From: Linnemannia hyalina
Taxonomy: Eukaryota > Mortierellomycota > Mortierellomycetes > Mortierellales > Mortierellaceae
Reading direction: 5' to 3'
Assembly: GCA_019671135.1 (NCBI GenBank)
Contig: JAHRHY010000016.1
Coordinates: 1-64,000 of the forward strand
Length of the DNA stretch: 64,000 bases
The notes beneath the pieces are model-generated. The model was not told the origin of the DNA. It was given only the letters and a program-made list of their open reading frames with translations, and did not search any database. The position numbers were made by a program, and so were the translations under genes. Of this stretch, positions 5,693 through 35,288 are shown in pieces; within the stretch, counting starts at the first letter, position 1; every line of letters begins with the position of its first letter.

Positions 5693-5815
5693 TTGTTGAG
5701 ACAGATGAAGAGTAGATATTTTAAAAACTATCCAATTGTCAACAGTTGGCATTTGTGGTTGTATATATAGCATGAACTTTTTAAAAATGTAACATGTCTT
5801 CGACACTTCCACCTA

Positions 5816-6310: not shown

Positions 6311-6471
6311 TACCGAATAAAATATAAAAATATATTTGTATTCTCAACTATGTGCTTGCTGTATGATAGATACCATCATACATGCTGTTGTGTATACAGT
6401 TAAGTATAAGCCTTTTTAAAAAATTGTTATTGTTGGTTAACGTCATGACAATCCAATACATAAATATTATT

Positions 6472-7728
6472 ATGGATCTAACAAAACACTTCCAACAACT
6501 GCTTGATGACCATTGGACTTTCCTCAACGCTGGATGGCCAACAATTACACCACGTAATAATCATCGTACTGTAAGCAAGGAAATTGGGTATATGCCAGAA
6601 ATAAAAGAAACCCTAAATCGACGCCTTGGTCCTATTCCAGTGTACTTCTTTCTTGTTGACATCTGGCCAAAGGTTAAGTATCCTGGTCCATACAAAGAAG
6701 TGGAGAAAGGTCTTTTAATGCTCTATCATCTTGTCAAAGGACTGTCTATGGAAGCAATGGAACCACACATGCCAAAAAGTAGTTTTCATGCAATGCACTC
6801 TGTGTTTTATAAGAAAGAATATACTTTGCACAACAAGTACATCACCAACTGTATTGCAACAATGTTCTCCACAATTAAAATACGCCTTTTGTCTGCAAAG
6901 GAAAAGAATCCTCCATTATTTAAGCATGTTACATTGCATCTTGATGGTCATGATACAAGAGCAACATACAAAGGTGAGAGTAGTGCTGATATGTACTCTT
7001 ACAAGCTGAAAAAGTCAGGATTACGCACACAGGTAGCAATGGATTGTAATGGCATGGCTTTATTTGTCTCCAAATCTGCATCTTGCAAGAACAATGCTGA
7101 TGGAACAATGCTGCTAACGATGAAGTTGGACAAGAGAGTGCATGAGATGGATTGCATTGCTCTCGATGGAGGGTATCCACAGTTCTTAAGGAGGCTTATA
7201 GATGAGTCTGATACTCTTAAAGTCCAAAATTTCGCTCATCCATACCGTAAACAGAAGAACAAGGAACTTACACAGGAAGAAGCGTTATACAATACCACCT
7301 TTGGTAGTTTCCGCTCGCAGATGGAATCTCTGTTTGCAGACCTTGGTTCCACATTTGAGAAACACAACAACCGTACTCCTGTGTTGGTGGATAAGAAACA
7401 AACATATAATTTGCAGTTGAAGTTATCTTTGTTACTCTTAAACATGAAAAAGATGGTTGCTTTGTTGAAGATTTCTGCAGAACCAATTCATACAGCTTGG
7501 CTTCGCGAAGGATTCGAGTATCCGACAACAGAGAACGACGTTGAGCAACCAATGGGATATGTTGATGTTGGTGCGCTAGTGGAGGATGGAAATACAATGG
7601 CACAACTCCAGAACAAATTTCTTGGTATTAATCTTCATGGTGATGTTGATGAGGACCAGTACTCTGATGAGGACACACCAATGGATCCACCAGTAATACT
7701 GCAACCCGGCCTTTCCATTGCGCTTTGA
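6472..7728 (+). CDS. DDE1 transposase, F1 copy B
   Basis: Same 418-aa product as copy A, with no residue differences. It ends early relative to copies C and D: the frame meets TGA after SIAL, whereas C and D read on for a further 11 residues (429 aa). The insertion that makes the early stop (GAGGTACGTAGTACG against GAGGTACG) is also in copy E. Confidence 0.8.
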   Translation: MDLTKHFQQLLDDHWTFLNAGWPTITPRNNHRTVSKEIGYMPEIKETLNRRLGPIPVYFFLVDIWPKVKYPGPYKEVEKGLLMLYHLVKGLSMEAMEPHMPKSSFHAMHSVFYKKEYTLHNKYITNCIATMFSTIKIRLLSAKEKNPPLFKHVTLHLDGHDTRATYKGESSADMYSYKLKKSGLRTQVAMDCNGMALFVSKSASCKNNADGTMLLTMKLDKRVHEMDCIALDGGYPQFLRRLIDESDTLKVQNFAHPYRKQKNKELTQEEALYNTTFGSFRSQMESLFADLGSTFEKHNNRTPVLVDKKQTYNLQLKLSLLLLNMKKMVALLKISAEPIHTAWLREGFEYPTTENDVEQPMGYVDVGALVEDGNTMAQLQNKFLGINLHGDVDEDQYSDEDTPMDPPVILQPGLSIAL

Positions 7729-8448
7729 GGTACGTAGTACGAAGCGACAAATGGATGTTAATGGTAATTTGTAGACTTATTGCAGGTTTTTAAAAGAATA
7801 GACATACATAGCCTATTTAGTCAGCGTTGAGATACGGTATTAACTGCCTAGACGCTAATATGCACCGGTATCTATTATTAAAAGTCATGGTATTATTGTA
7901 GTAGATCGGATGCTATTCTATGCTATTCTACAACATTCCTTTTTATTTAACAAAGAGGATAAACACATGTACAAACCTACGTCATAAAAGAATACATAAA
8001 CACATGTACAAACCTACGTCATAAAAGAATACTACATTCTTAACCATTTTTAAACCCCGTCTTTAACGCCAAGCAGTCTTAATAAGCAAGATCTACGTCA
8101 TACGAGGAACACTACGTTATTAACCACTTAGATGCCTTTTTAAAACTCTTTTGTTACTAAGCGCCAAGCAGTGTTAATAAGCAAGCGCTATTAATATCCA
8201 GTGTGGCAGTGTCCCATGAATTAGTATAAATAAAGGACTCCACTTCCCTCTTGCTTAATCTTTATCTTATCTAGTAACCAACCAACCATTATCCATATCT
8301 ATACAACCATCCATACCTATACAACCATCTTTTATTGCAATTCTTTATATCAGTGTACTAAGCAGCTGCAATCTACCACACATAAACTGAAAAGTCATTC
8401 ACACCCACCATATCACAAGTACAATCTATATCGTTCATATCCAAAAAC

Positions 8449-10695
8449 ATGCAGTACGTTCAGCTTACAATCGAGCTCATCACCAAGGCCTTCGAGACAT
8501 TTTCTTCTAAGAAGGGAGTGGAGTTTACCAAGAAAGATGCAAATAAGATCTTTAAGGCGCTTGATGAGGATGAGGGAGTAGAGAGATACTACTTTTGTGG
8601 TGCAAAGTGCACCAAGTCCAAGCGCAAATGCATGAAGGAAGTTGATGATGAAGGCATGCATTGTTATGTCCACGATCCTGCGCGCAAGTGTCAAGGCACA
8701 ACCATTAAGGGCGCTAATTGTGGTAGTGTAGCCAAACTTGGTGAAACATACTGTGGACGTCATCGAGAGCAGCATAAAGGTCATATGAAAAGCAGTAACA
8801 ATAAGGCACCTGCCAACAAGCGTACCAAGTCTTCCAAGATAACCAAGAAGACACATACTCCTGAGTTTGTCCCTTCAGATGATGATATGACTTCCGAGGA
8901 TGAAGAACCAAAGAAGCGAAAGAGAAACAAGCAGGAGTCATCGGATGAGGAGCCGTCCGATGATGATGAAGAAGATATAATTGCCGTCTCCTTTCCGTTG
9001 AGTCCAAAGGTAGTTGACATAACGTCCAAGAAAAATGTACCACTCGCTAATACAGGCATATGGATGCGTTATGCAACTAATCCAGCTTTCCTGTATGCAA
9101 AAAACTATACTGTAAATGGCAAGTACATTATTAAGCTGAAGGAAAAGGACCTCTACATTGTATTGTGTCCACCTGAGCTCATGGGGAAAAATCTTCCTGT
9201 ACCGAAATTATCTGACAAAGAGGTACGTATATTACAAAAGATGGGACTCCAAGAGGCAACTCCTGCTGATGTAGAAAAAATAGAAGAGTCTTCTGCTGAT
9301 GAGAATTCTGACGATGATACAGATGATGGTGATACGTCTGATGATGCTGGCTCTGACGATGATTCCCCTGATGATAAAGACTCTGATGATGGCAAGTCCA
9401 ATAACAGACCTGATGTAGAATCTGGAGATGATACCTCTAAGGATAACCCTGATGAAAAACTATCTCATAAAAAGTCATCTAAGGATGATGAGAAGAAGAC
9501 TTCTCGAAAGAAAAGGCATTCAGAGATGCCCAAAAATGCAGAGCCATCTTCTAATGTAGACGTTTCTAAGGATGGAAAAGATGAACATACATTTGCACTG
9601 GCCACAACGGTGCATAACATTAGATCAGAGAAAGACATAGCACGTGCGAAGGACAGAGGATGGATGATTCATCCTAATAACGACATGCTTGAGTATGCAA
9701 CTAAGTTTACGATGAATGGCAAGTACATTGTCAGGCTATCTGGAAAGAATACATACGTTGGCCTGTTTACGCTTGATGCTCTGCGCGGTGTCGGTGATGT
9801 TCCAGAGTTGGATATCTTGGAACGCTCCATGCTTAGCAAGATGAAACTTCAACCATTGTCTGATGAAGAGAGAAAGACGCTTTTCAACGAGGAGATCGAA
9901 GTAGAAGAAGAAGTACCAGTAGAAGGACCAACAGATAAATCCAAGGTGATATGGAAAAAACTTAACAAGTACTTGGAATATTCCGAGAATGTACTTGTAA
10001 ATGGAATGCACATTCTCAAGATGCGCAAAAAAGACACTGTAATCGGCTTGATGACTGATGACCATATTGCTGCAGAGAATGTAGAGTGTCATTCTCTTAG
10101 CCAGAAGGAAAAAGAGAAGTTGTTTGCTATGGGATTTAAACCGCATGAGCATAAGCAAAGCTTGCCACAGAAAGATGAGAGCACATGTGAGGATGATAAA
10201 GATGCTGAGGGCGATAAAGATGCTGAGGATGACAAAGATGCGGTGGGTGATAAAGATGCTGAAGATGACAAAGATGTTGAGGGTGATAACGATGCTGAGG
10301 ATGACAAAGATGCTGAGGGTGATAACGATGCTGAAGATGATAAAGATGCTGAGGATGATAAAGATGCTGAGGATGTTATGTGGAAAAGGTACCCTAAAGA
10401 TAAAAGCTCTTCGGGTATAATCGTCATAGATAAAGACGAAATTAAATGGACAACATGTTCGTTTGACAAGAAGCATGAATATGCAACCAACTACCTTTTC
10501 GACGGATGTCATCTGCTCAAGAGGTACGAAGAGGACATTATTGTTGGACTGCTGTATAAGATACCTGCAAACGGTGACAGTAACTATAGTCGAGACAAAT
10601 TTACCAACAACAAACAAAAGCAGAAGTTAATTGCCATGGGGTTCACGATCGAGGAATTGCCTAAATTGTACTCTCCAGATGTAAAGTTTTGGTAG
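8449..10695 (+). CDS. Acidic zinc protein, F1 copy B (748 aa)
   Basis: Identical to copy A, including the number of acidic repeats. TATA at 8225-8232. Its stop is followed by TATTTTAAAAAC and then CTTTTTAAAAATG before R1-c. Confidence 0.8.
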   Translation: MQYVQLTIELITKAFETFSSKKGVEFTKKDANKIFKALDEDEGVERYYFCGAKCTKSKRKCMKEVDDEGMHCYVHDPARKCQGTTIKGANCGSVAKLGETYCGRHREQHKGHMKSSNNKAPANKRTKSSKITKKTHTPEFVPSDDDMTSEDEEPKKRKRNKQESSDEEPSDDDEEDIIAVSFPLSPKVVDITSKKNVPLANTGIWMRYATNPAFLYAKNYTVNGKYIIKLKEKDLYIVLCPPELMGKNLPVPKLSDKEVRILQKMGLQEATPADVEKIEESSADENSDDDTDDGDTSDDAGSDDDSPDDKDSDDGKSNNRPDVESGDDTSKDNPDEKLSHKKSSKDDEKKTSRKKRHSEMPKNAEPSSNVDVSKDGKDEHTFALATTVHNIRSEKDIARAKDRGWMIHPNNDMLEYATKFTMNGKYIVRLSGKNTYVGLFTLDALRGVGDVPELDILERSMLSKMKLQPLSDEERKTLFNEEIEVEEEVPVEGPTDKSKVIWKKLNKYLEYSENVLVNGMHILKMRKKDTVIGLMTDDHIAAENVECHSLSQKEKEKLFAMGFKPHEHKQSLPQKDESTCEDDKDAEGDKDAEDDKDAVGDKDAEDDKDVEGDNDAEDDKDAEGDNDAEDDKDAEDDKDAEDVMWKRYPKDKSSSGIIVIDKDEIKWTTCSFDKKHEYATNYLFDGCHLLKRYEEDIIVGLLYKIPANGDSNYSRDKFTNNKQKQKLIAMGFTIEELPKLYSPDVKFW

Positions 10696-10818
10696 TTGTT
10701 GAGACAGATGAAGAGTAGATATTTTAAAAACTATCCAATTGTCAACAGTTGGCATTTGTGGTTGTATATATAGCATGAACTTTTTAAAAATGTAACATGT
10801 CTTCGACACTTCCACCTA

Positions 10819-11318
10819 GGAGGCCTTTCAAGTCCAAATTATCATATGGTGTTTGTTACATCTCTGCAGATCTTGACGATATCCACCGCGTCCATTAGAG
10901 GAGAAGTGTATATATGATATCCAAGCATATAAGACAACCACTTGTAACATTCTTTGTTTAACTATCCTACTAAACACCAACCTACATTCTCCAAACAACA
11001 AAGTCTTCTTATTTTTCGCACACCAAACTCTTGAATATGTCCATCTACTATTAACCTGTAACCCTCACTGCAAGATTCGACAGAGTAGTTCTTGTATGTG
11101 ATCATCTAAAGCACTTGTATTCCCAACTGTATCTTTGTCGTGAAATACAGGGGAGAGATTACATTTTAAAAATTCTTGTGCTGTCTATTGCTATTTTATT
11201 CTGTGTTCTGTTGCCCACTATGAAGAGATATGCCAGTTATGGAAGTCAACACTCCGTTCCTTGGACTTTGGATATTTTTTATATGCCTTTTTATATCCTC
11301 TGCACATGAAGGGGCCGC
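10819..11318 (+). repeat. R1-c module (500 bp, mosaic with small indels)
   Basis: The right end of the tandem. It has several one-base insertions between 10905 and 10990 relative to R1-a (GAAGTG for GAATG, ATATCC for ATACC, CCACTTG for CCATTG, CCTACATT for CCTATT). These fall where the R1-e/f type differs from the alpha type. The 90-codon minus-strand frame is therefore broken. It may be a real recombinant or a consensus error from mixing two R1 types. Confidence 0.85.
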
Positions 11319-12104: not shown

Positions 12105-12883
12105 GTAATTATGTCAATTATTCCCTAGAATTCCCCAGATATGTCATATTAAGAAATGGTGGGCATAGCTTAACAAAAGACGAGAAAACAGGTGTACTCC
12201 CTCGCCCAAAAAAAAGCTTTCCAACCTTTTGTCCTCCTCGAAAACCGAGATGTAAAATATGTTTATGTTGATACTCTTTACCTACGTTTTGCTCTTATAA
12301 TACTGCTAGATAACTATGTCCATTTGGATCCTTTTGCTTTTGTATATGTACTCTTTATAGATATATTTGTTATCTTTTTAAAAACTCCTTCCATAATTGT
12401 CTGTACAAATTCTTGCAACTTCCATTGGTATTCCATAACATATTTACCTATTTCGACCCAAGACGATTCCCATTTAGATGTGTATTTTGTTTTACAGATT
12501 GGCTTTGATATCCGCGACAAATATATTCCCCACGTTGACCTATTATGTATCTCTTATTTTATAATCTACTCTTGATCTACTTTAATATTCCACTGCGTGG
12601 GTTGGGTACTCCCTCGCCCAAAAAAAAGCTTTCCAACCTTTTGTCCTCCTCGAAAACCGAGATGTAAAATATGTTTATGTTGATACTCTTTACCTACGTT
12701 TTGCTCTTATAATACTGCTAGATAACTATGTCCATTTGGATCCTTTTGCTTTTGTATATGTACTCTTTATAGATATATTTGTTATCTTTTTAAAAACTCC
12801 TTCCATAATTGTCTGTACAAATTCTTGCAACTTCCATTGGTATTCCATAACATATTTACCTATTTCGACCCAAGACGATTCCC
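12105..12883 (+). repeat. F2 copy 1 end region with two S repeats
   Basis: From the DDE2 start outward: an AT-rich leader, a first S repeat of about 280 bp (12190-12470, begins GTACTCCCTCGCCC, ends CAAGACGATTCCC), a spacer of about 130 bp, then a second S repeat (12608-12883). S repeats form the inverted ends of all F2 copies and contain TTTTTAAAAA. No gene is seen here. Confidence 0.7.
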
Positions 12884-13125
12884 AAAAAGCATGGTTATAG
12901 TCGTATCGAGCTGACGTTTGAAGGTTCATCTTTGAGATCTCTTCAGTCATATCAAGACGAAATGGACAAGACAAAGAATCTCTTGAAGAAATGTAAAACA
13001 TTTAAATGTTCCTTTGAGATGCAGTGGGAGGAACGTGCAAAATGCATTACCTCGATGGTGGCTGTACATTTTCCACATGAGAAACTGTTTGCTTATTGTC
13101 ACTGGTGGAATTCGGTAACCTCTAA

Positions 13126-13620
13126 GGAGGCCTTTCAGGTCCAAGTTATCATATGGTGTTTGTTACATCTCTGTAGATCTCGACAATATCCATAGCGACT
13201 ATGGGATGAGAATGTATATATGATACCAAGCATATAAGACAACCATTGTAACATTTTTTGTTTAACTATCCTACTAAACACCAACCTATTCTCCAAACAA
13301 CAAAGTCTTCTTATTTTTCGCACACCACACTCTTGAATATGTCCATCTACTATTAACCTGTAACCCTCACTGCAAGATTCGCCAGAGTAGTTCTTGTATG
13401 TCATCATCTAAAGCACTTGTACTCTCAACTGTATCTTTGGGGCGAAATACAGGGGAGAGATTACATTTTAAAAAAACATGTGCTGTCTATTGCTATTTTA
13501 TTCTGTGTTCTGTTGCCCACTATGAAGAGATATGTCAGTTATGGAAGTAAACACTCCGTTCCTTGGGCTTTGGATATTTTTTATATGCCTTTTTATATCC
13601 TCTGCACATGAAGGGGCCGC
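13126..13620 (+). repeat. R1-d, solo insertion in REP2 (beta type)
   Basis: A complete 495-bp module flanked by TAA at 13123-13125 and 13621-13623. The uninterrupted target is visible at 27611-27630. The beta type differs from alpha mainly in the first 90 bp (CAGGTCCAAGTT; TAGATCTCGACAATATCCATAGCG) and has GGGGCG in place of GTCGTG near 13440. This is one of the cleanest proofs that R1 is mobile alone. Confidence 0.92.
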
Positions 13621-13820
13621 TAAGAAGTATGGATATATGTGGCAAAACTTTAAGAACCCCGAGCTTATTACACTTTTGCTGGCTAACTATTCCTTTAACA
13701 ATAGACCTATATACTTTGTGGAAGGACATGTAGAAGAGGTAAATGGGAAAGAGAAAGTTATTTTGGGCGAAATAAGGACATTTAAGCGCGAGCATGGATG
13801 TACTGCCATTACACTAGTTG

Positions 13821-14315
13821 GCGGCCCCTTCATGTGCAGAGGATATAAAAAGGCATATAAAAAATATCCAAAGTCCAAGGAACGGAGTGTTGACTTCCAT
13901 AACTGGCATATCTCTTCATAGTGGGCAACAGAACACAGAATAAAATAGCAATAGACAGCACAAGAATTTTTAAAATGTAATCTCTCCCCTGTATTTCACG
14001 ACAAAGATACAGTTGAGAATACAAGTGCTTTAGATGATCACATACAAGAACTACTCTGTCGAATCTTGCAGTGAGGGTTACAGTTTAATAGTAGATGAAC
14101 ACATTCAAGATATTGGTGAGCGAAAAATAAGAAGACTTTGTTGTTTGGAGAATGTAGTTGTGTTTAGTAGGATAATCGCGCAAGGAATGTTACAGTGGTT
14201 GTTTTAAATGGTTGATATCATACATACACTCTCCTCTAATGGACGCGGTGGATATCGTCAAGATCTGCAGAGATGTAACAAACACCATATGATAATTTGG
14301 ACTTGAAAGGCCTCC
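13821..14315 (-). repeat. R1-e module (gamma type)
   Basis: Identical by eye to its partner R1-f but about 8 percent different from other R1 copies (for example CAGTTTAATAG and GATATTGGTGAGCG). The minus-strand frame of other copies stops after about 57 codons here (TTGTTTTAA). The match between the two ends of one element parallels LTR pairs. Confidence 0.9.
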
Positions 14316-14438
14316 TAGGTGGAAGTGTCGAAGACATGTTACATTTTTAAAAAGTTCATGCTATATATACAACCACAAATGCCAACTGTTGACAATTGGA
14401 TAGTTTTTAAAATATCTACTCTTCATCTGTCTCAACAA

Positions 14439-16703
14439 CTACCAAAACTTTACATCTGGAGAGTACAATTTAGGCAATTCCTCGATCGTGAACCCCATGG
14501 CAATTAACTTCTGCTTTTGTTTGTTGTTGGTAAATTTGTCTCGACTATAGTTACTGTCACCGTTTGCAGGTATCTTATACAGCAGTCCAACAATAATGTC
14601 CTCTTCGTACCTCTTGAGCAGATGACATCCGTCGAAAAGGTAGTTGGTTGCATATTCATGCTTCTTGTCAAACGAACATGTTGTCCATTTAATTTCGTCT
14701 TTATCTATGACGATTATACCCGAGGAGCTTTTATCTTTAGGGTACCTTTTCCACATAACATCCTCAGCATCTTTATCATCCTCAGCATCTTTATCATCTT
14801 CAGCATCGTTATCACCCTCAGCATCTTTGTCATCCTCAGCATCGTTATCACCCTCAGCATCTTTGTCATCTTCAGCATCTTTATCACCCACCGCATCTTT
14901 GTCATCCTCAGCATCTTTATCGCCCTCAGCATCTTTATCGCCCTCAGCATCTTTATCATCCTCACATGTGCTCTCATCTTTCTGTGGCAAGCTTTGCTTA
15001 TGCTCATGCGGTTTAAATCCCATAGCAAACAACTTCTCTTTTTCCTTCTGGCTAAGAGAATGACACTCTACATTCTCTGCAGCAATATGGTCATCAGTCA
15101 TCAAGCCGATTACAGTGTCTTTTTTGCGCATCTTGAGAATGTGCATTCCATTTACAAGTACATTCTCGGAATATTCCAAGTACTTGTTAAGTTTTTTCCA
15201 TATCACCTTGGATTTATCTGTTGGTCCTTCTACTGGTACTTCTTCTTCTACTTCGATCTCCTCGTTGAAAAGCGTCTTTCTCTCTTCATCAGACAATGGT
15301 TGAAGTTTCATCTTGCTAAGCATGGAGCGTTCCAAGATATCCAACTCTGGAACATCACCGACACCGCGCAGAGCATCAAGCGTAAACAGGCCAACGTATG
15401 TATTCTTTCCAGATAGCCTGACAATGTACTTGCCATTCATCGTAAACTTAGTTGCATACTCAAGCATGTCGTTATTAGGATGAATCATCCATCCTCTGTC
15501 CTTCGCACGTGCTATGTCTTTCTCTGATCTAATGTTATGCACCGTTGTGGCCAGTGCAAATGTATGTTCATCTTTTCCATCCTTAGAAACGTCTACATTA
15601 GAAGATGGCTCTGCATTTTTGGGCATCTCTGAATGCCTTTTCTTTCGAGAAGTCTTCTTCTCATCATCCTTAGATGACTTTTTATGAGATAGTTTTTCAT
15701 CAGGGTTATCCTTAGAGGTATCATCTCCAGATTCTACATCAGGTCTGTTATTGGACTTGCCATCATCAGAGTCTTTATCATCAGGGGAATCATCGTCAGA
15801 GCCAGCATCATCAGACGTATCACCATCATCTGTATCATCGTCAGAATTCTCATCAGCAGAAGACTCTTCTATTTTTTCTACATCAGCAGGAGTTGCCTCT
15901 TGGAGTCCCATCTTTTGTAATATACGTACCTCTTTGTCAGATAATTTCGGTACAGGAAGATTTTTCCCCATGAGCTCAGGTGGACACAATACAATGTAGA
16001 GGTCCTTTTCCTTCAGCTTAATAATGTACTTGCCATTTACAGTATAGTTTTTTGCATACAGGAAAGCTGGATTAGTTGCATAACGCATCCATATGCCTGT
16101 ATTAGCGAGTGGTACATTTTTCTTGGACGTTATGTCAACTACCTTTGGACTCAACGGAAAGGAGACGGCAATTATATCTTCTTCATCATCATCGGACGGC
16201 TCCTCATCCGATGACTCCTGCTTGTTTCTCTTTCGCTTCTTTGGTTCTTCATCCTCGGAAGTCATATCATCATCTGAAGGGACAAACTCAGGAGTATGTG
16301 TCTTCTTGGTTATCTTGGAAGACTTGGTACGCTTGTTGGCAGGTGCCTTATTGTTACTGCTTTTCATATGACCTTTATGCTGCTCTCGATGACGTCCACA
16401 GTATGTTTCACCAAGTTTGGCTACACTACCACAATTAGCGCCCTTAATGGTTGTGCCTTGACACTTGCGCGCAGGATCGTGGACATAACAATGCATGCCT
16501 TCATCATCAACTTCCTTCATGCATTTGCGCTTGGACTTGGTGCACTTTGCACCACAAAAGTAGTATCTCTCTACTCCCTCATCCTCATCAAGCGCCTTAA
16601 AGATCTTATTTGCATCTTTCTTGGTAAACTCCACTCCCTTCTTAGAAGAAAATGTCTCGAAGGCCTTGGTGATGAGCTCGATTGTAAGCTGAACGTACTG
16701 CAT
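14439..16703 (-). CDS. Acidic zinc protein, F1 copy C (754 aa)
   Basis: As copy A but with one extra seven-residue acidic repeat (DKDAEGD) and a few changes in that tract. Cys/His motifs and the four W...VGL blocks are intact. The start ATG at 16703 has TATA at 16920-16927 upstream on the same strand. Confidence 0.8.
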   Translation of the reverse strand: MQYVQLTIELITKAFETFSSKKGVEFTKKDANKIFKALDEDEGVERYYFCGAKCTKSKRKCMKEVDDEGMHCYVHDPARKCQGTTIKGANCGSVAKLGETYCGRHREQHKGHMKSSNNKAPANKRTKSSKITKKTHTPEFVPSDDDMTSEDEEPKKRKRNKQESSDEEPSDDDEEDIIAVSFPLSPKVVDITSKKNVPLANTGIWMRYATNPAFLYAKNYTVNGKYIIKLKEKDLYIVLCPPELMGKNLPVPKLSDKEVRILQKMGLQEATPADVEKIEESSADENSDDDTDDGDTSDDAGSDDDSPDDKDSDDGKSNNRPDVESGDDTSKDNPDEKLSHKKSSKDDEKKTSRKKRHSEMPKNAEPSSNVDVSKDGKDEHTFALATTVHNIRSEKDIARAKDRGWMIHPNNDMLEYATKFTMNGKYIVRLSGKNTYVGLFTLDALRGVGDVPELDILERSMLSKMKLQPLSDEERKTLFNEEIEVEEEVPVEGPTDKSKVIWKKLNKYLEYSENVLVNGMHILKMRKKDTVIGLMTDDHIAAENVECHSLSQKEKEKLFAMGFKPHEHKQSLPQKDESTCEDDKDAEGDKDAEGDKDAEDDKDAVGDKDAEDDKDAEGDNDAEDDKDAEGDNDAEDDKDAEDDKDAEDVMWKRYPKDKSSSGIIVIDKDEIKWTTCSFDKKHEYATNYLFDGCHLLKRYEEDIIVGLLYKIPANGDSNYSRDKFTNNKQKQKLIAMGFTIEELPKLYSPDVKFW

Positions 16704-17377
16704 GTTTTTGGATATGAACGATATAGATTGTACTTGTGATATGGTGGGTGTGAATGACTTTTCAGTTTATGTGTGGTAGATTGCAGCTGCTTAGTACACT
16801 GATATAAAGAATTGCAATAAAAGATGGTTGTATAGGTATGGATGGTTGTATAGATATGGATAATGGTTGGTTGGTTACTAGATAAGATAAAGATTAAGCA
16901 AGAGGGAAGTGGAGTCCTTTATTTATACTAATTCATGGGACACTGCCACACTGGATATTAATAGCGCTTGCTTATTAACACTGCTTGGCGCTTAGTAACA
17001 AAAGAGTTTTAAAAAGGCATCTAAGTGGTTAATAACGTAGTGTTCCTCGTATGACGTAGATCTTGCTTATTAAGACTGCTTGGCGTTAAAGACGGGGTTT
17101 AAAAATGGTTAAGAATGTAGTATTCTTTTATGACGTAGGTTTGTACATGTGTTTATGTATTCTTTTATGGCGTAGGTTTGTACATGTGTTTATCCTCTTT
17201 GTTAAATAAAAAGGAATGTTGTAGAATAGCATAGAATAGCATCCGATCTACTACAATAATACCATGACTTTTAATAATAGATACCGGTGCATATTAGCGT
17301 CTAGGCAGTTAATACCGTATCTCAACGCTGACTAAATAGGCTATGTATGTCTATTCTTTTAAAAACCTGCAATAAGT

Positions 17378-18667
17378 CTACAAATTACCATTAACATCCA
17401 TTTGTCGCTTCGTACCTCTAAGCTCAATGGAAAGACCGGGTTGCATTATTACTGCTTGATCCATTGGTGTGTCCTCATCAACATTAACATCAACATCACC
17501 ATGAAGATTAATACCAAGAAATTTGTTCTGGAGTTGTGCCATTGTATTTCCATCCTCCACTAGCGCACCAACATCAACATATCCCATTGGTTGCTCAACG
17601 TCGTTCTCTGTCGTCGGATACTCGAATCCTTCGCGAAGCCAAGCTGTATGAATTGGTTCTGCAGAAATCTTCAACAAAGCAACCATCTTTTTCATGTTTA
17701 AGAGTAACAAAGATAACTTCAACTGCAAATTATATGTTTGTTTCTTATCCACCAACACAGGAGTACGGTTGTTGTGTTTCTCAAATGTGGAACCAAGGTC
17801 TGCAAACAGAGATTCCATCTGCGAGCGGAAACTACCAAAGGTGGTATTGTATAACGCTTCTTCCTGTGTAAGTTCCTTGTTCTTCTGTTTACGGTATGGA
17901 TGAGCGAAATTTTGGATTCTAAGAGTGTCAGACTCATCTATAAGCCTCCTTAAGAACTGTGGATACCCTCCATCGAGAGCAATGCAATCCATCTCATGCA
18001 CTCTCTTGTCCAACTTCATCGTTAGCAGCATTGTTCCATCAGCATTGTTCTTGCAAGATGCAGATTTGGAGACAAATAAAGCCATGCCATTACAATCCAT
18101 TGCTACCTGTGTGCGTAATCCTGACTTTTTCAGCTTGTAAGAGTACATATCAGCACTACTCTCACCTTTGTATGTTGCTCTTGTATCATGACCATCAAGA
18201 TGCAATGTAACATGCTTAAATAATGGAGGATTCTTTTCCTTTGCAGACAAAAGGCGTATTTTAATTGTGGAGAACATTGTTGCAATACAGTTGGTGATGT
18301 ACTTGTTGTGCAAAGTATATTCTTTCTTATAAAACACAGAGTGCATTGCATGAAAACTACTTTTTGGCATGTGTGGTTCCATTGCTTCCATAGACAGTCC
18401 TTTGACAAGATGGTAGAGCATTAAAAGACCTTTCTCCACTTCTTTGTATGGACCAGGATACTTAACCTTTGGCCAGATGTCAGCAAGAAAGAAGTACACT
18501 GGAATAGGACCAAGGCGTCGATTTAGGGTTTCTTTTATTTCTGGCATATACCCAATTTCCTTGCTTACAGTACGATGATTATTACGTGGTGTAATTGTTG
18601 GCCATCCAGCGTTGAGGAAAGTCCAATGGTCATCAAGCAGTTGTTTGAAGTGTTTTGTTAGATCCAT
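17378..18667 (-). CDS. DDE1 transposase, F1 copy C (429 aa)
   Basis: The full-length form. The C-terminus runs past the stop of copies A and B and ends RQMDVNGNL. The HLDGHD, ALDGGY and RSQMESLF catalytic blocks are intact. A few residue changes (Q to K near residue 8, V to A in the LADIW block). The ATG at 18667 was chosen by alignment with DDE2 and DDE3; an in-frame ATG at 18757 exists. Confidence 0.8.
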   Translation of the reverse strand: MDLTKHFKQLLDDHWTFLNAGWPTITPRNNHRTVSKEIGYMPEIKETLNRRLGPIPVYFFLADIWPKVKYPGPYKEVEKGLLMLYHLVKGLSMEAMEPHMPKSSFHAMHSVFYKKEYTLHNKYITNCIATMFSTIKIRLLSAKEKNPPLFKHVTLHLDGHDTRATYKGESSADMYSYKLKKSGLRTQVAMDCNGMALFVSKSASCKNNADGTMLLTMKLDKRVHEMDCIALDGGYPQFLRRLIDESDTLRIQNFAHPYRKQKNKELTQEEALYNTTFGSFRSQMESLFADLGSTFEKHNNRTPVLVDKKQTYNLQLKLSLLLLNMKKMVALLKISAEPIHTAWLREGFEYPTTENDVEQPMGYVDVGALVEDGNTMAQLQNKFLGINLHGDVDVNVDEDTPMDQAVIMQPGLSIELRGTKRQMDVNGNL

Positions 18668-18828
18668 AATAATATTTATGTATTGGATTGTCATGACGTT
18701 AACCAACAATAACAATTTTTTAAAAAGGCTTATACTTAACTGTATACACAACAGCATGTAGGATGGTATCTATCATACAGCAAGCACATAGTTGAGAATA
18801 CAAATATATTTTTATATTTTATTCGGTA

Positions 18829-19323
18829 GCGGCCCCTTCATGTGCAGAGGATATAAAAAGGCATATAAAAAATATCCAAAGTCCAAGGAACGGAGTGTTG
18901 ACTTCCATAACTGGCATATCTCTTCATAGTGGGCAACAGAACACAGAATAAAATAGCAATAGACAGCACAAGAATTTTTAAAATGTAATCTCTCCCCTGT
19001 ATTTCACGACAAAGATACAGTTGAGAATACAAGTGCTTTAGATGATCACATACAAGAACTACTCTGTCGAATCTTGCAGTGAGGGTTACAGTTTAATAGT
19101 AGATGAACACATTCAAGATATTGGTGAGCGAAAAATAAGAAGACTTTGTTGTTTGGAGAATGTAGTTGTGTTTAGTAGGATAATCGCGCAAGGAATGTTA
19201 CAGTGGTTGTTTTAAATGGTTGATATCATACATACACTCTCCTCTAATGGACGCGGTGGATATCGTCAAGATCTGCAGAGATGTAACAAACACCATATGA
19301 TAATTTGGACTTGAAAGGCCTCC
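18829..19323 (-). repeat. R1-f module (gamma type)
   Basis: Partner of R1-e in the composite. It is followed by TTG and the continuation of REP2, and its inner junction reads GGTA before GCGGCCCC. Confidence 0.9.
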
Positions 19324-19864
19324 TTGCTGGCTCGCAAAAAGGAATGTTTCCTTCAAGGGATGCATCTCCTAATGTCATTCGTAAATTTAGCAAAGTTGGA
19401 ATTGTGGAAGTTGACAACATCTCTATTGCCTGGCCAAAGCGTGTTCATAACAGGTATAGTGCCCCACTTGCAGATATCTTCGAATATGATGAAGATACAG
19501 TAGACACAAATGTATTACATCTGAAAACTATTCATGTTTCGATGTATACTGCAGCCCACCAAATTTTAGAGCCTGATGAAGAGTATACCATTGTGGCGGC
19601 CGGTCTCAAAGAATTTCGTTCTGAACGTCGTTGGCATTTTATTACAGCATGTGGCATAAAGGTGCGCGAAGGAAAATCGTTGGCAAAGATTTGGAGACCA
19701 TGGCGTGTGGAGCATCTTCAAGGTCTACAGAGAATTGGTAGTGTGAAAGGTGTGCCGTTCATGACATTTCGAGCGATTAGAGTGGTTAATTCACATAATA
19801 TACTTGATATGAAGTGCGAGCGCGTTTGAGAGGTTTTTAAAAACTTTGGAAAGACTTTTGTTAA

Positions 19865-21145
19865 TTATAGACTGGTATTATCGTCTTCGTGGTTTGACAT
19901 TTCCTCGTCATCATCCTTATTTGACGTTTGTTCATCATCATCATCTGAAGCAACATCTATTCCTACAAATTTCTCTTGCATTCTTTGTAACTCAAGACCA
20001 TTTTCCAGTTTGTTTTGTACTGTAACGGTTTGTGTTAACTCTGGGACAAGTTGCCTTTCTCGTGGATAATCTACTCCTTCTTCCATCCATCCACGATGAT
20101 GTGGCTGCTCTTCGATGTCCACTGCTTTAACAAAGTTGCGAATATTTAGCAACAGAAGACAAAGGCGGAATGTAAGATTAAACTCCTTTTTGGATCCAAC
20201 TCGAACAATCTCCTTGTTATTAAACTTGGCGAATGTTTTCATGAGATCACCAAAGACAGCCTCTGACGTAGATCGAAATCCACCAAACATAGCATTAAAG
20301 TTGGATTCCTCTTCGTGGAGTTGCTGTAGTCGTTTCTTACGAATGGGAAAACAGAAGTTACGCTCGTCCAACTTTTCTTTTTCCACAATATCGCCAATGT
20401 ATTGTGTATATCCTCCATCGAGAGCAATACAGTCCATGTTGTTGATCTTCTTACCAATGCCCATCTCTTGTAACATTTTCCCATCGTTGTTATCACGACA
20501 TGACGCTGATTTGGATACAAAGAGAACCATTCCATTGGCATCGATGGCCACTTGCGTTCTCAAACCCGATTTCTTTAGCTTATAAGAATACATTGCTGCT
20601 TTATCTTCCCCATATGTTGCTCGAGAGTCATGACCATCCAAGTAGAGAGTTACATGCTTGAACATTGGGGGATTTTTCCAATTGGCTGTTCGAATACGAA
20701 TTTCCAGCGAAGAGAACATAGATGCAAAACAGCGTGTAATCTCCTTCTCAAATAATGCACGTTCCACCTTGACGAATGTGCTGTATATCAAATGGAATGT
20801 GGACTTTGGCATATACTGTGCCATGGAATCCATAGTCTCTCCAGCGACGAAAAAGTACAGAAATGCAATTCCTTTCTCAAGTGCGTTATATGGACCAGGG
20901 AAATAGTGTTTACTCCAGATGGTAGATAGAAAGAAAAACACTGGTATGGCTCCAAGTCTCTTCATCAACACCTTTTTCATATCCTGTATTCTTGCGATTG
21001 GTTTCAACTCTGAACGATGAAATGTCTTGACCTTTGGGCACATTGGCCACGGTTCATCAAGAAATCCCCATTCGTTCTCCAACAGATTATCAAGCAGCCG
21101 TGCAAGTTTCTTTGGCGTAGGGTTTACGACGGTATCAGTCTCCAT
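19865..21145 (-). CDS. DDE2 transposase, F2 copy 2 (intact, 426 aa)
   Basis: A predicted DDE transposase related to DDE1. Catalytic blocks are YLDGHDSR, ALDGGYTQYI and an R-x-x-x-E helix (FRSTSEAVFGDL). Residues around GPYNALEKGIAFLYF correspond to the helix-turn-helix. The C-terminal 35 residues are acidic. It is convergent with REP2 (stops 35 bp apart around GTTTTTAAAAAC). The start is the ATG at 21145; the frame extends 12 codons further to a GTG. Just upstream is TTTTTGCAG, which could be the acceptor of an intron in the 5' leader. Confidence 0.82.
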   Translation of the reverse strand: METDTVVNPTPKKLARLLDNLLENEWGFLDEPWPMCPKVKTFHRSELKPIARIQDMKKVLMKRLGAIPVFFFLSTIWSKHYFPGPYNALEKGIAFLYFFVAGETMDSMAQYMPKSTFHLIYSTFVKVERALFEKEITRCFASMFSSLEIRIRTANWKNPPMFKHVTLYLDGHDSRATYGEDKAAMYSYKLKKSGLRTQVAIDANGMVLFVSKSASCRDNNDGKMLQEMGIGKKINNMDCIALDGGYTQYIGDIVEKEKLDERNFCFPIRKKRLQQLHEEESNFNAMFGGFRSTSEAVFGDLMKTFAKFNNKEIVRVGSKKEFNLTFRLCLLLLNIRNFVKAVDIEEQPHHRGWMEEGVDYPRERQLVPELTQTVTVQNKLENGLELQRMQEKFVGIDVASDDDDEQTSNKDDDEEMSNHEDDNTSL

Positions 21146-21615
21146 AATGTCGTTTTCTGCAAAAATAGGGAGTATACACACGTAATTATGTCAATTATTC
21201 CCTAGAATTCCCCTGATATGTCATATTAAGAAATGGTGGGCATAGCTTAACAAAAGACGAGAAAATAGGTGTACTCCCTCGCCCAAAAAAAAGCGCTCCA
21301 ACCTTTTTGTCCTGCCCGATTACCGATATGTAAAATATGTTTATGTTGATACTCTCTCCTTACGTTTTGCTCTTGTAATACTGCTAGATAACTATCTCCA
21401 TTTGGATTCTTTTGCTTTTGTATATGTACTCTTTATAGATGTATTTGTTATCTTTTTAAAAACTCCTTCCATAATTGTCTGTACAAATTCTTGCAACCTC
21501 CATTGGTATTCCATAACATATTCATCTATTTCGACCCAAGACGATTCCCGTTGCAAGAATTTGTACAGACAATTATGGAAGGAGTTTTTAAAAAGATAAC
21601 AAATACATCTATAAA
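21146..21615. repeat. F2 end repeats: right end of copy 2 and a stub of copy 4
   Basis: 21146-21549 is the DDE2-side end of F2 copy 2 with one S repeat, ending CAAGACGATTCCC. 21550-21615 is an inverted S-repeat fragment of F2 copy 4, ending CATCTATAAA, where F2 copy 3 begins. The other half of that S repeat is at 25048-25213. Because copies 2 and 3 meet head to head, 20-23.3 kb forms a large palindrome. No gene is seen. Confidence 0.65.
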
Positions 21616-22019
21616 GGGAAATGTCTTGGGTCGAAATAGTTAAATATGTTATGGAATACCAATGGAAGTTGCAAGAATTTGTACAGACGATTATGGAAGG
21701 AGTTTTTAAAAAGACAACAGATATATCTATAAAGAATACATATACAAAAGCAAAAGAATCCAAATGGACATAGTTATCTAGCAGTATTACAAGAGCAAAA
21801 CGTAAGGAAAGAGTATCAACATAAACATATTTTACATATCGGTAATCGAGGAATAGAATTGGGGGAGTGCGCTTTTTTTTGGGCGAGGGAGTACACCTGT
21901 TTTCTCGTCTTTTGTTAAGCTATGCCCACCATTTCTTAATATGACATATCTGGGGAATTCTAGGGAATAATTGACATAATTACGTGTGTATAATCCCTAT
22001 TTTTGCAGAAAACGACATT

Positions 22020-23300
22020 ATGGAGACTGATACCGTCGTAAACCCTACGCCAAAGAAACTTGCACGGCTGCTTGATAATCTGTTGGAGAACGAATGGGGA
22101 TTTCTTGATGAACCGTGGCCAATGTGCCCAAAGGTCAAGACATTTCATCGTTCAGAGTTGAAACCAATCGCAAGAATACAGGATATGAAAAAGGTGTTGA
22201 TGAAGCGACTTGGAGCCATACCGGTGTTTTTCTTTCTATCTACCATCTGGAGTAAACACTATTTCCCTGGTCCATATAACGCACTTGAGAAAGGAATTGC
22301 ATTTCTGTACTTTTTCGTCGCTGGAGAGACTATGGATTCCATGGCACAGTATATGCCAAAGTCCACATTCCATTTGATATACAGCACATTTGTCAAGGTG
22401 GAACGTGCATTATTTGAGAAGGAGATTACACGCTGTTTTGTATCTATGTTCTCCTCTTTGGAAATTCGTATTCGAACAGCCAATTGGAAAAATCCCCCAA
22501 TGTTCAAGCATGTAACTCTCTACTTGGATGGTCATGACTCTCGAGCAACATATGGGGAAGATAAAGCAGCAATGTATTCTTATAAGCTAAAGAAATCGGG
22601 TTTGAGAACGCAAGTGGCCATCGATGCTAATGGAATGGTTCTCCTTGTATCCAAATCAGCATCATGTCGTGATAACAACGATGGGAAAATGCTACAAGAG
22701 ATGGGCATTGGCAAGAAGATCGACAGCATGGACTGTATTGCTCTCGATGGAGGATATACACAATACATTGGCGATATTGTGGAAAAAGAAAAGTTGGACG
22801 AGCGTAACTTCTGTTTTCCCATTCGTAAGAAACGACTACAGCAACTCCACGAAGAGGAATCCAACTTTAATGCTATGTTTGGTGGTTTTCGATCTACGTC
22901 AGAAGCAGTCTTTGGTGATCTTATGAAAACATTCGCCAAGTTTAATAATAAGGAGATTGTAAGAGTTGGATCCAAAAAGGAGTTTAATCTTACATTCCGC
23001 CTTTGTCTTCTCTTGCTAAATGTTCGCAACTTTGTCAAAGCAGTCGACATCGAAGAGCTGCCACATCATCGTGGATGGATGGAAGAAGGAGTGGATTATC
23101 CACGAGAAAGGCAACTTATTCCAGAGTTAACACAAACCATTACAGTACAAAACAAACTGGAGAATGGTCTTGAGTTACAAAGGATGCAAGAGAAATTTGT
23201 AGGAATAGATGTTGCTTCAGATGGTGATGATGAACAAACGTCAAATAAGGATGATGACGAGGAAATGTCAAACCACGAAGATGATAATACCAGTCTATAA
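22020..23300 (+). CDS. DDE2 transposase, F2 copy 3 (intact, 426 aa)
   Basis: All three catalytic blocks are present. It differs from copy 2 at scattered residues (for example F to L in the MVLLVSKSA block and D to G near the acidic tail). The opposite-facing DDE2 of copy 2 starts 874 bp away. Start ATG at 22020, after TTTTTGCAG. Confidence 0.82.
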   Translation: METDTVVNPTPKKLARLLDNLLENEWGFLDEPWPMCPKVKTFHRSELKPIARIQDMKKVLMKRLGAIPVFFFLSTIWSKHYFPGPYNALEKGIAFLYFFVAGETMDSMAQYMPKSTFHLIYSTFVKVERALFEKEITRCFVSMFSSLEIRIRTANWKNPPMFKHVTLYLDGHDSRATYGEDKAAMYSYKLKKSGLRTQVAIDANGMVLLVSKSASCRDNNDGKMLQEMGIGKKIDSMDCIALDGGYTQYIGDIVEKEKLDERNFCFPIRKKRLQQLHEEESNFNAMFGGFRSTSEAVFGDLMKTFAKFNNKEIVRVGSKKEFNLTFRLCLLLLNVRNFVKAVDIEELPHHRGWMEEGVDYPRERQLIPELTQTITVQNKLENGLELQRMQEKFVGIDVASDGDDEQTSNKDDDEEMSNHEDDNTSL

Positions 23301-23335
23301 TTAACAAAAGTCTTTCCAAAGTTTTTAAAAACCTC

Positions 23336-23773
23336 TCAAACACGCTCGCACTTCATATCGTCCTCGCCATGAATACGAACCTTTTTTACTGCACGAAATG
23401 TCATCAACGGTACACCTTCGACTCTGCCAATTCTCTGTAGACCTTGAAGATGCTCCACACGCCATGGTGTCCAAATCTTTGCCAACGATTTTCCTGCGCG
23501 CACCTTTATGCCACATGCTGTAATAAAATGCCAACGATGTTCAGAACGAAATTCTTTGAGACCGGCCGCTACAATGGTATACTCTTCATCAGGCTTTAGA
23601 ATTCGGTCGGCTGCAGTATACATCGAAACATGAATAGTTTTCAGATGTAATACATTTGTATCTACTGTATCTTCATCATATTCGAAGATATCTGCAAGTG
23701 GGGCACTATATCTGTTATGAACACGCTTTGGCCAGGCAATAGAGATGTTGTCAACTTCCACAATTCCAACTTT
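23336..23773 (-). pseudogene. REP2 C-terminal part, F2 copy 3, separated by FB inversion
   Basis: Encodes the last 145 residues of REP2. The 5' part is now at 26616-27884 on the other strand. It joins FB-1 at TTT (23771-23773, AAA on the gene strand). The last residues differ from copies 1 and 2 (KKVRIHGEDDMKCERV at the end). A frame through FB-1 would add about 50 foreign residues starting at GTG, which is unlikely to be a real protein. Confidence 0.8.
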
Positions 23774-24224
23774 GGAGGCCATCCATGTTCGGCTCCACCA
23801 ACCATAGACTACAGTATAAAAATATCTGTCAACACCTATTAAAACAGTGTGTTCCTTGAGAGTACAACAAATCTCATCAGCTTTTTCCTTCCACCAGTCT
23901 CCATTTTCTACATTCACCACCACTACTTTGTAACATCATCTACTTTAGCTGAGAAAGCCTTGGACATGATCATCTCATATTGGATCCTTGATATTACAGA
24001 TAGTAATTTCCTTTCCAATATGAGATGATCATGTCCAAGGCTTTCTCAGCTAAAGTAGATGATGTTACAAAGTAGTGGTGGTGAATGTAGAAAATGGAGA
24101 CTGGTGGAAGGAAAAAGCTGATGAGATTTGTTGTACTCTCAAGGAACACACTGTTTTAATAGGTGTTGACAGATATTTTTATACTGTAGTCTATGGTTGG
24201 TGGAGCCGAACATGGATGGCCTCC
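23774..24224. repeat. FB-1 fold-back module (451 bp)
   Basis: Two 211-bp arms (23774-23984, 24014-24224), essentially perfect inverted repeats, around a 29-bp loop. The ends read GGAGGCCATCCATG, sharing GGAGGCC with R1. Flanks are AAA-type on the left (REP2) and ATA on the right (R1-g). These do not match each other, but each matches a flank of FB-2: proof of recombination between the two copies. Confidence 0.92.
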
Positions 24225-24452
24225 ATAGTAGATGGACATATTCAAGAGTTTGGTGTGCGAAAAATAAGAAGACTTTGTTGTTTGGAGAATAGGTTGGTGT
24301 TTAGTAGGATAGTTAAACAAAAAATGTTACAATGGTTGTCTTATATGCTTGGTATCATACATACACTCTCCTCTAATGGACGCGGTGGATATCGTCAAGA
24401 TCTGCAGAGATGTAACAAACACCATATGATAATTTGGACTTGAAAGGCCTCC
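24225..24452 (-). repeat. R1-g, first half (displaced)
   Basis: The GGAGGCC half of an alpha R1. The other half is at 28336-28605. Together they make 495 bp after removing one copy of TAT. It was the left R1 of composite D and was separated by FB insertion followed by inversion. Confidence 0.85.
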
Positions 24453-25213
24453 TAAGTAGTATTATGGGAATTATTCCCAGGGAATTCATGTACTGTCAAC
24501 CAAGCTGGTACCATTATCATCATGCTGTATATGCATGAGATTCACCGTGGACACACGTATAAATGCTATATATGTTATATGAATGTAGGTGTTTTAAAAT
24601 GGTGGGCATAGCTTAACAAAAGACGAGAAAATAGGTGTACTCCCTCGCCCAAAAAAAAGCGCTCCAACCTTTTTGTCCTGCCCGATTACCGATATGTAAA
24701 ATATGTTTATGTTGATACTCTCTTCTTACGTTTTGCTCTTGTAATACTGCTAGATAACTATGTCCATTTGGATTCTTTTGCTTTTGTATATGTACTCTTT
24801 ATAGATGTATTTGTTATCTTTTTAAAAACTCCTTCCATAATTGTCTGTACAAATTCTTGCAACCTCCATTGGTATTCCATAACATATTCATCTATTTCGA
24901 CCCAAGACGATTCCCATTTATATGTGTATTTTGTTTTACAGATTGGCTTTGATATCCGCGACAAATATATTCCCCACGTTGACCTATTATGTATCTCTTA
25001 TTTTATAATCTACTCTTGATCTACTTTAATATTCCAATGCGTGGGTTGGGTACTCCCTCGCCCAAAAAAAAGCGCTCCAACCTTTTTGTCCTGCCCGATT
25101 ACCGATATGTAAAATATGTTTATGTTGATACTCTCTCCTTACGTTTTGCTCTTGTAATACTGCTAGATAACTATGTCCATTTGGATTCTTTTGCTTTTGT
25201 ATATGTACTCTTT
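24453..25213 (-). repeat. F2 copy 4 end region (inverted with the FB segment)
   Basis: From 24453 it begins TAAGTAGTATTATGGG, then S repeat 1 (about 24635-24915), a 130-bp spacer and a partial S repeat 2 ending at the insertion point of F2 copy 3. A mirror image of its outer part lies at 25533-25675. It contains GGGAATTATTCCC palindromes. No gene is seen. Confidence 0.65.
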
Positions 25214-25708
25214 GGGAAATGTCTTGGGTCGAAATAGTTAAATATGTTATGGAATACCAATGGAAGTTGCAAGAATTTGTACAGACGATTATGGAAGGAG
25301 TTTTTAAAAAGACAACAGATATATCTATAAAGAATACATATACAAAAGCAAAAGAATCCAAATGGACATAGTTATCTAGCAGTATTACAAGAGCAAAACG
25401 TAAGGAAAGAGTATCAACATAAACATATTTTACATATCGGTAATCGAGGAATAGAATTGGGGGAGTGCGCTTTTTTTTGGGCGAGGGAGTACACCTGTTT
25501 TCTCGTCTTTTGTTAAGCTATGCCCACCATTTTAAATCACCTACGTTCATATAACATATATAGCATTTATACATGTGTCAACGGTGAATCTCATGCATAT
25601 ACATCATGATGATAATGGTACCAGCTTGGTTGACAGTACATGAATTCCCTGGGAATAATTCCCATAATACTACTTATGGAAGGTATATATATTGCACATT
25701 TTAAAAGA

Positions 25709-26615: not shown

Positions 26616-27884
26616 ATGTCGCCAACAAAAGAATCTCTGATAAACAAAGCCATCAACGAAATTTCCCATTTGCTGTCAAATGTGGGTAATCTACAGTCAG
26701 CACCATTTGGCAGTGTGGAGAGAAAAGGATTCACCAAATTCTCCAAACTCTTTTGCGATTCCATCATCTTTTGGGGTATATATAACTTTGCTGACGATAC
26801 CACTAAAGGTACAGCAATTGGAAAGTACATTGCTGAACTGCGCGATGCATTTAACCACACCGATTTAATTGTGGAATCTGTAAAGTTGGTCGATGCTAGG
26901 CAGGTTAAAATGGATGATAACTATTTTTCTCCGCGCATGGTCAAACGCCATAGAAAGTTGTTTGTTGGAAAAGAATACCAACAGGGTTTTATTGCCATCA
27001 AGGTTTCTTTAGATTTTTCCCCTGCAAAGATTGTTGTGCCAATTTTGGCGAACATGTTGTCTAGCTTGAACGAGAGCGGCATTGCTTTACATGACATAGA
27101 CTTTGCCTATGATTGTACGCGTATTACCACACGACTGCACGTGGAGAGATTGCTAAAACAAACGAAAACTACAAAAATTGTCGATGATGTGGGAAGAGTA
27201 GGACATCATTGTATTTCATGGAGAGGTCGAAAAGGGGATACAAAGAATATCCGATATAAGGTGTATAACAAATTTGTTCAGATTTTGGAAAGTGCCGAGG
27301 TGCGAAAGAGCCTTGGTTCACGTTTGGAGGATTTGGTGGAGAAAGAAACAGCATTTGGACGACGAGTTAAAAAATATAAAAAGCATGGTTATAGTCGTAT
27401 CGAGCTGACGTTTGAAGGTTCATCTTTGAGATCTCTTCAGTCATATCAAGACGAAATGGACAAGACAAAGAATCTCTTGAAGAAATGTAAAACATTTAAA
27501 TGTTCCTTTGAGATGCAGTGGGAGGAACGTGCAAAATGCATTACCTCGATGGTGGCTGTACATTTTCCACATGAGAAACTGTTTGCTTATTGTCACTGGT
27601 GGAATTCGGTAACCTCTAAGAAGTATGGATATATGTGGCAAAACTTTAAGAACCCCGAGCTTATTACACTTTTGCTGGCTAACTATTCCTTTAACGATAG
27701 ACCTATATACTTTGTGGAAGGACATGTAAAAGAGGTAAATGGGAAAGAGAAAGTTATTTTGGGCGAAATAAGGACATTTAAGCGCGAGCCTGGATGTACT
27801 GCCATCACACTAGTTGCTGGCTCGCAAAAAGGAATGTTTCCTTCGAGGGATGCATCTTCTAACGTCATTCGTAAATTTAGCAAA
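26616..27884 (+). CDS. REP2 N-terminal part, F2 copy 3 (cut by FB-2)
   Basis: Residues 1-423 of a 567-aa protein (the rest is at 23336-23770). No firm family. It contains ALHDIDFAYDCTRITTR, a GHHCISWRG block, RYKVYNKFVQILES and a SRIELTF strand. This order (an acidic D-x-D-x3-D strand, then Y-x-K, then R-x-E) is loosely like rolling-circle replication initiators of the Rep_trans type. I treat that as a hypothesis only. The conserved FAYCHWWNSVTSKKYG, NYSFNDRPIYF and CTAITLVAG blocks are shared with REP3. It lies convergent to DDE2 in the unrearranged element. The open frame runs a few codons into FB-2. Confidence 0.75.
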
Positions 27885-28605: not shown

Positions 28606-28766
28606 TACCGAATAAAATATAAAAATATATTTGTATTCTCAACTATGTGCTTGCTGTATGATAGATACCATCCTACATGCTGTTGTGTATACAGTTAAGT
28701 ATAAGCCTTTTTAAAAAATTGTTATTGTTGGTTAACGTCATGACAATCCAATACATAAATATTATT

Positions 28767-30056: not shown

Positions 30057-30140
30057 ACTTATTGCAGGTTTTTAAAAGAATAGACATACATAGCCTATTT
30101 AGTCAGCGTTGAGATACGGTATTAACTGCCTAGACGCTAA

Positions 30141-35251: not shown

Positions 35252-35288
35252 TACCGAATAAAATATAAAAATATATTTGTATTCTCAA

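Follow-up and report, generated by a model that had tools for sequence, protein, structure and literature searches.

The stretch of DNA analysed here (the window: the 64 kb at the start of contig C8 in a genome of 51.5 Mb and 50 contigs) contains, at 13821-19323, a DDE transposase region (F1) enclosed by two identical, directly repeated modules (R1). What kind of transposon carries such ends, and how do its two ends stay alike? The initial annotation had proposed that the R1-F1-R1 unit is flanked as a whole by 3-bp duplications, that R1 also inserts alone, and that no eukaryotic element of this plan had been described. We followed these proposals through the window and through the whole genome.

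Modules, cores and target duplications

R1 is a direct, non-palindromic module of 495 bp. Its tips read GCGGCCCCTTCATGTGC and, inward from the opposite end, GGAGGCCTTTCAAGTCC, and they form an imperfect inverted repeat with 11 of 17 bases alike. Thus, the description of the ends as direct rather than inverted was half right: the 495-bp end modules are direct and non-coding (the longest M-started reading frame has 57 codons), but because each R1 has inverted tips, the ends of the unit are inverted as well. Searching the genome with R1 and F1 recovered 344 full-length R1 copies by exact tip pattern (control, 0) together with 119 left and 111 right F1 ends (exact patterns; controls, 0), and the plan of the element held genome-wide.

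An F1 end directly abuts 54 of the first 100 R1 places, and three of these sit between two F1 cores. On contigs C1-C11, R1 adjoins all 36 left and all 35 right F1 ends in the same direct orientation. An exact-pattern R1 is present at 30/36 left and 27/35 right ends; the remaining six left and eight right ends adjoin an R1 that has variant tips or is broken by a nested insert or by the end of the contig. No F1 end lacking R1 was found among these 71, nor was any F1 copy with its own ends inside R1, the counter-observation that the initial annotation had named. Joined R1-F1 junctions, allowing up to two mismatches, number 122 on the left and 112 on the right, and an F1-F1 junction lacking R1 did not turn up. 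The orientation of R1 is constant in the 100 left junctions listed (119 exact in all), and these junctions fall, compared by eye among the matches listed (100 each), at the same places as the left ends. Some R1 or R1-F1-R1 copies are themselves nested in other R1 copies (C4:1900104-1905588, C10:1272494, C11:62079 and C3:1965831), with 3-bp duplications at the first three (at C11 by eye from the flanks).

The copies in the window are collected in Table 1. The duplications annotated around the main unit, the second unit and the tandem all match. In contrast, the copy at 30992-34429, annotated as a unit flanked by TTA, has TAT and TTA as flanks and contains no intact unit; its inverted R1 copies are best explained by an inversion, and the larger rearranged region is also cut by a solo R2 at 30141-30591 (R2 is the end module of a sister family described below). 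The R1 at 34757-35251, taken for a solo copy, proved to be a remnant still carrying 37 bp of the F1 right end.

Table 1. Features of the window (strand given where assigned).
Feature	Position	Strand	Remarks
Left R1 of main unit	13821-14315	+	495 bp; TTG at 13818-13820
F1 core of main unit	14316-18828		begins TAGGTGG, ends TTCGGTA
754-aa second protein of F1	14439-16703	-	acidic; N-terminus rich in Cys (by eye); no Pfam match above cut-off
459-aa DDE_Tnp_4 transposase of F1	17378-18757	-	D188/D262/E315 in 27/27 aligned sequences
Right R1 of main unit	18829-19323	+	100% identical to left R1, direct; TTG at 19324-19326
Tandem R1-F1-R1-F1-R1	813-11318	-	three R1, two cores; AAT both sides; within F2 transposase gene
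R1-F1-R1 unit	37326-42809	+	TTG both sides; between parts of gypsy-like reading frame
Solo R1	13126-13620	-	TTA/TTA in R1 orientation; exact empty sites elsewhere
Solo R1	51507-52001	+	TTT/TTT
Solo R1	57846-58340	-	TAG/TAG in R1 orientation
Rearranged F1 copy	28332-34429		F1 parts between inverted R1 copies 30992-31486 (+) and 33935-34429 (-)
Remnant	34757-35288	-	right R1 (34757-35251) and 37 bp of F1 right end
R2 copy	23774-24224	+	451-bp near-palindrome; R1 half (24225-24452) on its right
R2-F3-R2 element	43958-53573		TTT both sides; inside gypsy-like reading frame
F3 595-aa companion	47387-49174		no Pfam family above cut-off
F3 437-aa transposase	49212-50525		53% identical to F1 transposase

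Genome-wide, target site duplications (TSDs) were scored in 29 units, of about 110, in which both R1 were full length and fetched: 28 single units and the tandem, entered once through its outer R1. These pair counts omit broken or singly fetched R1, such as those at C5:22213, C11:73301 and C9:14030. The same outer 3-mer flanks 25 of the 29 units, where re-pairing the flanks expects 1.86, and no 4-bp match occurs. Solo R1 behave likewise, with the same outer 3-mer at 35 of 42 (3.29 expected) and a single 4-bp match; these 42 come from 121 full R1 tabulated, every R1 beside an F1 end being excluded, and the other seven have no TSD. Chance matching of the flanks, the other counter-reading that had been raised, is ruled out by these numbers, and the proposal that units and solos each carry their own duplication is upheld. 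Of the 60 TSDs, 12 are TTA or TAA and all 60 have A or T in the middle; C precedes in 41 and G follows in 38. The extended site C-TWA-G of the R1 TSDs resembles the target of PIF transposons.

That the interrupted genes are whole without the element, as had been claimed, was borne out for some copies. An exact 57-bp empty site exists for the tandem in all five F2 loci searched (one of them the second F2 copy in the window), for the solo R1 at 13126-13620 in four of five loci, and for one solo R2 at seven loci. Exact searching of five F2 loci gave no empty site for the main unit. Support for one comes there from alignment: two loci (L128 and L130) match the unit's flanks on both sides (98-99.8%), and the two matches overlap by 3 bases, at 957-959, the length of the duplication.

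The F1 proteins and related systems

F1 is mostly 4.5-4.8 kb long, in two subtypes told apart by the left end; with R1 taken as plus, both of its proteins are coded on the minus strand. The transposase matches Pfam DDE_Tnp_4 above the cut-off (E = 1.6e-7), and its nearest relatives among named proteins, transposases with 40-80% identity, come from Mortierella and related genera. Profile comparison with solved structures gave unrelated matches alone (E of 0.09 or worse), and a structure model (pLDDT 84) weakly matches the ISCth4 and Tn5 transposases (best E 3.3e-3). Between the second D and the E, a C/DxxH motif is present in 0 of 27 aligned transposase sequences. Pfam searches found no Myb/SANT domain in the second protein, no reverse transcriptase in either protein, and no His-Me finger nuclease in either at E ≤ 1, a threshold that a diverged nuclease could escape. 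Viral contigs searched for relatives with flanks yielded 16 pattern matches, of which none was confirmed. Copies of the F1 transposase are strongly subtelomeric or contig-end: 48 of the 53 matches on contigs of known length (92 matches in all) lie less than 100 kb from a contig end, and about 11% of those contigs’ bases fall within that distance.

PIF/Harbinger elements and the related Tourist MITEs combine a DDE_Tnp_4 transposase with a 3-bp AT-rich TSD preferring TWA, short inverted tips, and a second protein with a Myb/SANT domain. R1-F1-R1 shares the DDE_Tnp_4 transposase with its conserved DDE residues, the 3-bp TSD, the short inverted tips and the presence of a second protein. It differs in its long direct end modules, in a second protein without a Myb/SANT match, and in a TSD not confined to TWA. 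Foldback elements of the FB-NOF kind also hold a coding core between end modules that are found alone, and the palindromic R2 described below recalls them; however, their transposase belongs to another superfamily, and R1 is direct and non-palindromic. In bacterial Tn9 composites and IS26-type units, direct modules flank the unit, a TSD is made and a cointegrate-like product arises. The likeness to a Tn9-type composite suggested in the initial annotation is nevertheless rejected: the end modules of R1-F1-R1 encode no transposase, which lies instead in the centre.

The claim that no eukaryotic element of this plan had been described does not survive. KolobokP of animals (Kojima & Bao 2022, PMC9587614) is described there as an internal DDE transposase region between two long direct repeats of about 450 or 660 bp. 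In the passages of that paper on paired ends, the repeats have short inverted tips of their own (11-18 bp), occur as solo repeats and multimers, and have TSDs of 3-4 or 4-5 bp; junctions of the F1-F1 type without a repeat, and one-armed copies, also occur, and no left-right identity test is reported. R1-F1-R1 resembles KolobokP as described in these passages in its long direct terminal repeats with their own inverted tips, its solos, its (repeat-INT)n-repeat multimers and its TSDs. In contrast to that description, it has a DDE_Tnp_4 transposase, neither the C/DxxH motif nor a His-Me finger match, a fungal host, and no F1-F1 junction. The first bases of R1 are GC and the last are CC, and not the 5'-RR / YY-3' ends of KolobokP type. 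Membership in KolobokP was ruled out on the transposase, the motif, the GC/CC ends and the lack of a nuclease match. The literature searched, outside which lie most subscription journals and the Repbase reports, yielded no fungal paired-end element among the matches listed. In that literature, animal KolobokP is the one other bearer of the paired-end plan.

Left-right identity and how the element may multiply

The two R1 of a unit are far more alike than R1 of different units. Left and right R1 differ at a median of 0 positions (exactly 0 in 18 of the 29 units and at most 3 in 25), and R1 between units at a median of 25 of 495. In 2000 random re-pairings the lowest left-right total was 438, against 81 observed, and none came close. 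No position cleanly separates left from right R1 in the 29 pairs. The identity is not that of a single invariant sequence: the exactly matched pairs comprise nine distinct R1 types in 17 TSD-intact units, 1-51 positions apart. Units with mismatched TSDs number four and have 0, 1, 9 and 36 left-right differences. Four units have at least six differences, and in two of these (36 and 9) the TSDs are mismatched, as expected of recombinants between elements.

R1 is also exchanged between cores. R1 types are block mosaics common to solo and paired copies (in this comparison some labels are off; the left R1 at C7:1723302, for example, is labelled solo). Many pairs of units have R1 copies 20-26 substitutions apart on cores that differ by 1-4 in the adjoining 1400 bp. 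For example, C33:29338-34786 and C33:45518-50966 differ by 2 in the core and 25 in R1, and units on C7 and C16 by 4 and 25, with left equal to right in all four; conversely, R1 copies one position apart sit on cores 11-14 substitutions apart. We quote pairs instead of a correlation because the core comparison covers 20 copies, one of which, C8:34757, is a remnant with no real core. It thus looks as if a unit exchanges its two end modules together and in matching form, for the most part irrespective of its core.

The architecture is plain from the copies themselves; for the proposed replication cycle behind it, gene conversion is the main rival. Our working reading, to which we would give not quite an even chance, is that R1-F1-R1 is a paired-end DDE_Tnp_4 (PIF/Harbinger-like) transposon multiplying by replicative insertion of a circle of one R1 and one F1. 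The transposase would treat R1 itself as the transposon. On the circle, a predicted intermediate, it would cleave the lone R1 at either tip and link these ends to the target; copying of R1 by replication would then give R1-F1-R1 with a target duplication, as in a Shapiro-type cointegrate. The two R1 would next recombine by homology, which would leave a solo R1 between its duplicated target bases and free the circle again, possibly with a mosaic R1; tandem arrays could arise from circle dimers or by unequal crossing-over. Such a circle accounts for the direct orientation, the left-right identity, the matched mosaic pairs, the swapping of R1, the solos and the tandems. A circle rather than plain cut-and-paste is suggested by the 25 of 29 units with at most three left-right differences, while R1 between units typically differ at about 25 positions. 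Several points count against it. PIF/Harbinger elements are regarded as cut-and-paste transposons, and the core compared with R1 above is mostly transposase coding sequence, expected to change more slowly than R1. In addition, of the eight TSD-intact units with any left-right difference, four (two on C2, C8:37326 and C10:1299846-1305343, with 2, 2, 3 and 19 differences) vary at family-polymorphic positions alone and look like conversion tracts, the C10 difference being a 19-position block. Each of three others bears a single private change; in the tandem, five private indels accompany one polymorphic site. These differences shift the odds slightly away from the circle and towards conversion.

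Those four units fit another cycle, in which the transposase mobilizes R1-F1-R1 in one piece by cutting at its two outer tips, gene conversion in cis keeps the two R1 alike, and R1 alone is a MITE or a recombination leftover. Both tips are indeed present on each R1, TSDs are found at units and solos alike, and the mosaic structure of R1 implies frequent recombination or conversion. However, left-right differences of a parent should then be inherited, yet no left-not-right configuration is common to any two TSD-intact units (single polymorphic sites, 360 and 367, alone recur). Conversion in cis would also have to outpace conversion from outside, since a large left-right tract is seen in one of the 25 TSD-intact units, and nothing in such a cycle requires the invariant direct orientation. 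We consider transposition of the whole composite somewhat less likely than the circle.

Homologous targeting (model b1 of the KolobokP authors), in which R1 is a MITE and R1-F1 circles recombine into resident solo R1 that already have TSDs, would likewise yield direct repeats, TSDs, tandems and swapping of R1, and the C10 unit with 19 differences suits it. It predicts reciprocal left/right mosaics wherever circle and target differ; R1 types are commonly 20-50 positions apart, whereas three differences or fewer are seen in 25 of 29 pairs, which makes this route unlikely. Left-right identity, solos and tandems are also hallmarks of LTRs, but retrotransposition of the unit is extremely improbable, and an LTR retroelement was rejected as a candidate: neither F1 protein matches a reverse transcriptase family, the R1 tips are inverted repeats of GCGG..CTCC type and not TG..CA, the TSD is 3 bp, no purine tract directly precedes the right R1 (TTTATATTTTATTCGGTA), and no primer-binding site was seen by eye.

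Returning to replicative insertion of a circle, it is possible, though we hold this with some reserve, that R1 is the true transposon and F1 a passenger “plasmid” coding the transposase. This would be an LTR-like biology without reverse transcription, with an origin separate from that of KolobokP, in a fungal lineage of PIF/Harbinger-like type. Comparing the left and right R1 of each unit turns the upkeep of paired ends into something measurable, and the roughly 110 copies with 3-bp TSDs that one assembly offers can help to tell gene conversion, homologous targeting and replicative insertion apart. The same comparison might also permit LTR-style dating of DNA transposon insertions.

Sister families

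A second family in the window, R2-F3-R2, has a related transposase, and at least 33 full-length matches to F3 at 99% identity or more are present. Its module, R2, is a 451-bp near-palindrome, with symmetry broken at 25 of 451 positions and tips that share 13 of 17 bases with the right tip of R1. F3 also has inverted ends of about 2.2 kb, so its plan differs in detail from that of F1; both families have two-tipped modules that occur alone. The outer 3-mers agree in all three F3 elements for which both ends were available (TTT, ATG and CAT), and no exact empty site for the F3 insertion in the gypsy-like frame was found among the loci compared. R2 copies without an adjacent F3 have a TSD in two of five cases (AAG and TAA) and none in the other three. 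The R2 pattern matches 92 times per strand, at the same places on both strands among the matches listed. Two of the three R2 copies without a TSD, those in the window at 23774 and 27885, have crosswise flanks (TTT with AAA, ATA with TAT), the pattern expected if the segment between them had been inverted. That the paired-end plan is found with another transposase superfamily and in another kingdom, and that the end modules of two sister families in the same genome occur alone, suggests a strategy that recurs and not an oddity.

The inner edges of the F1 and F3 cores both read TAG at the start and TA at the end, beside the module (TA-R-TA), perhaps a trace of the module’s original insertion.

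The F3 companion protein is related to a companion in a third family, F2 (26616-27953; 40% identity over 418 aa), and both are encoded next to DDE_Tnp_4 genes. Neither matches a Pfam family above the cut-off. An alignment of 25 companion sequences, the named ones fungal, has 34 invariant residues. The F3 companion has no match among PDB sequences, none to solved structures by profile, and no confident fold match. A rolling-circle Rep was considered for it and set aside, as its modelled fold lends no support: the best match has E = 1.3e-3 at a TM-score of 0.10, and no Rep appears among the best 50 matches.

F2, which has a 438-aa transposase, forms head-to-tail arrays with a 279-bp direct repeat at the junctions (locus L131, C16:775600-785400; window 12154-25680). 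Its ends are a complex of tandem and inverted repeats, and F2 is perhaps a third paired-end design. Elsewhere in the window, a large array of a 19-bp satellite at 60406-63266 has long open frames on both strands.
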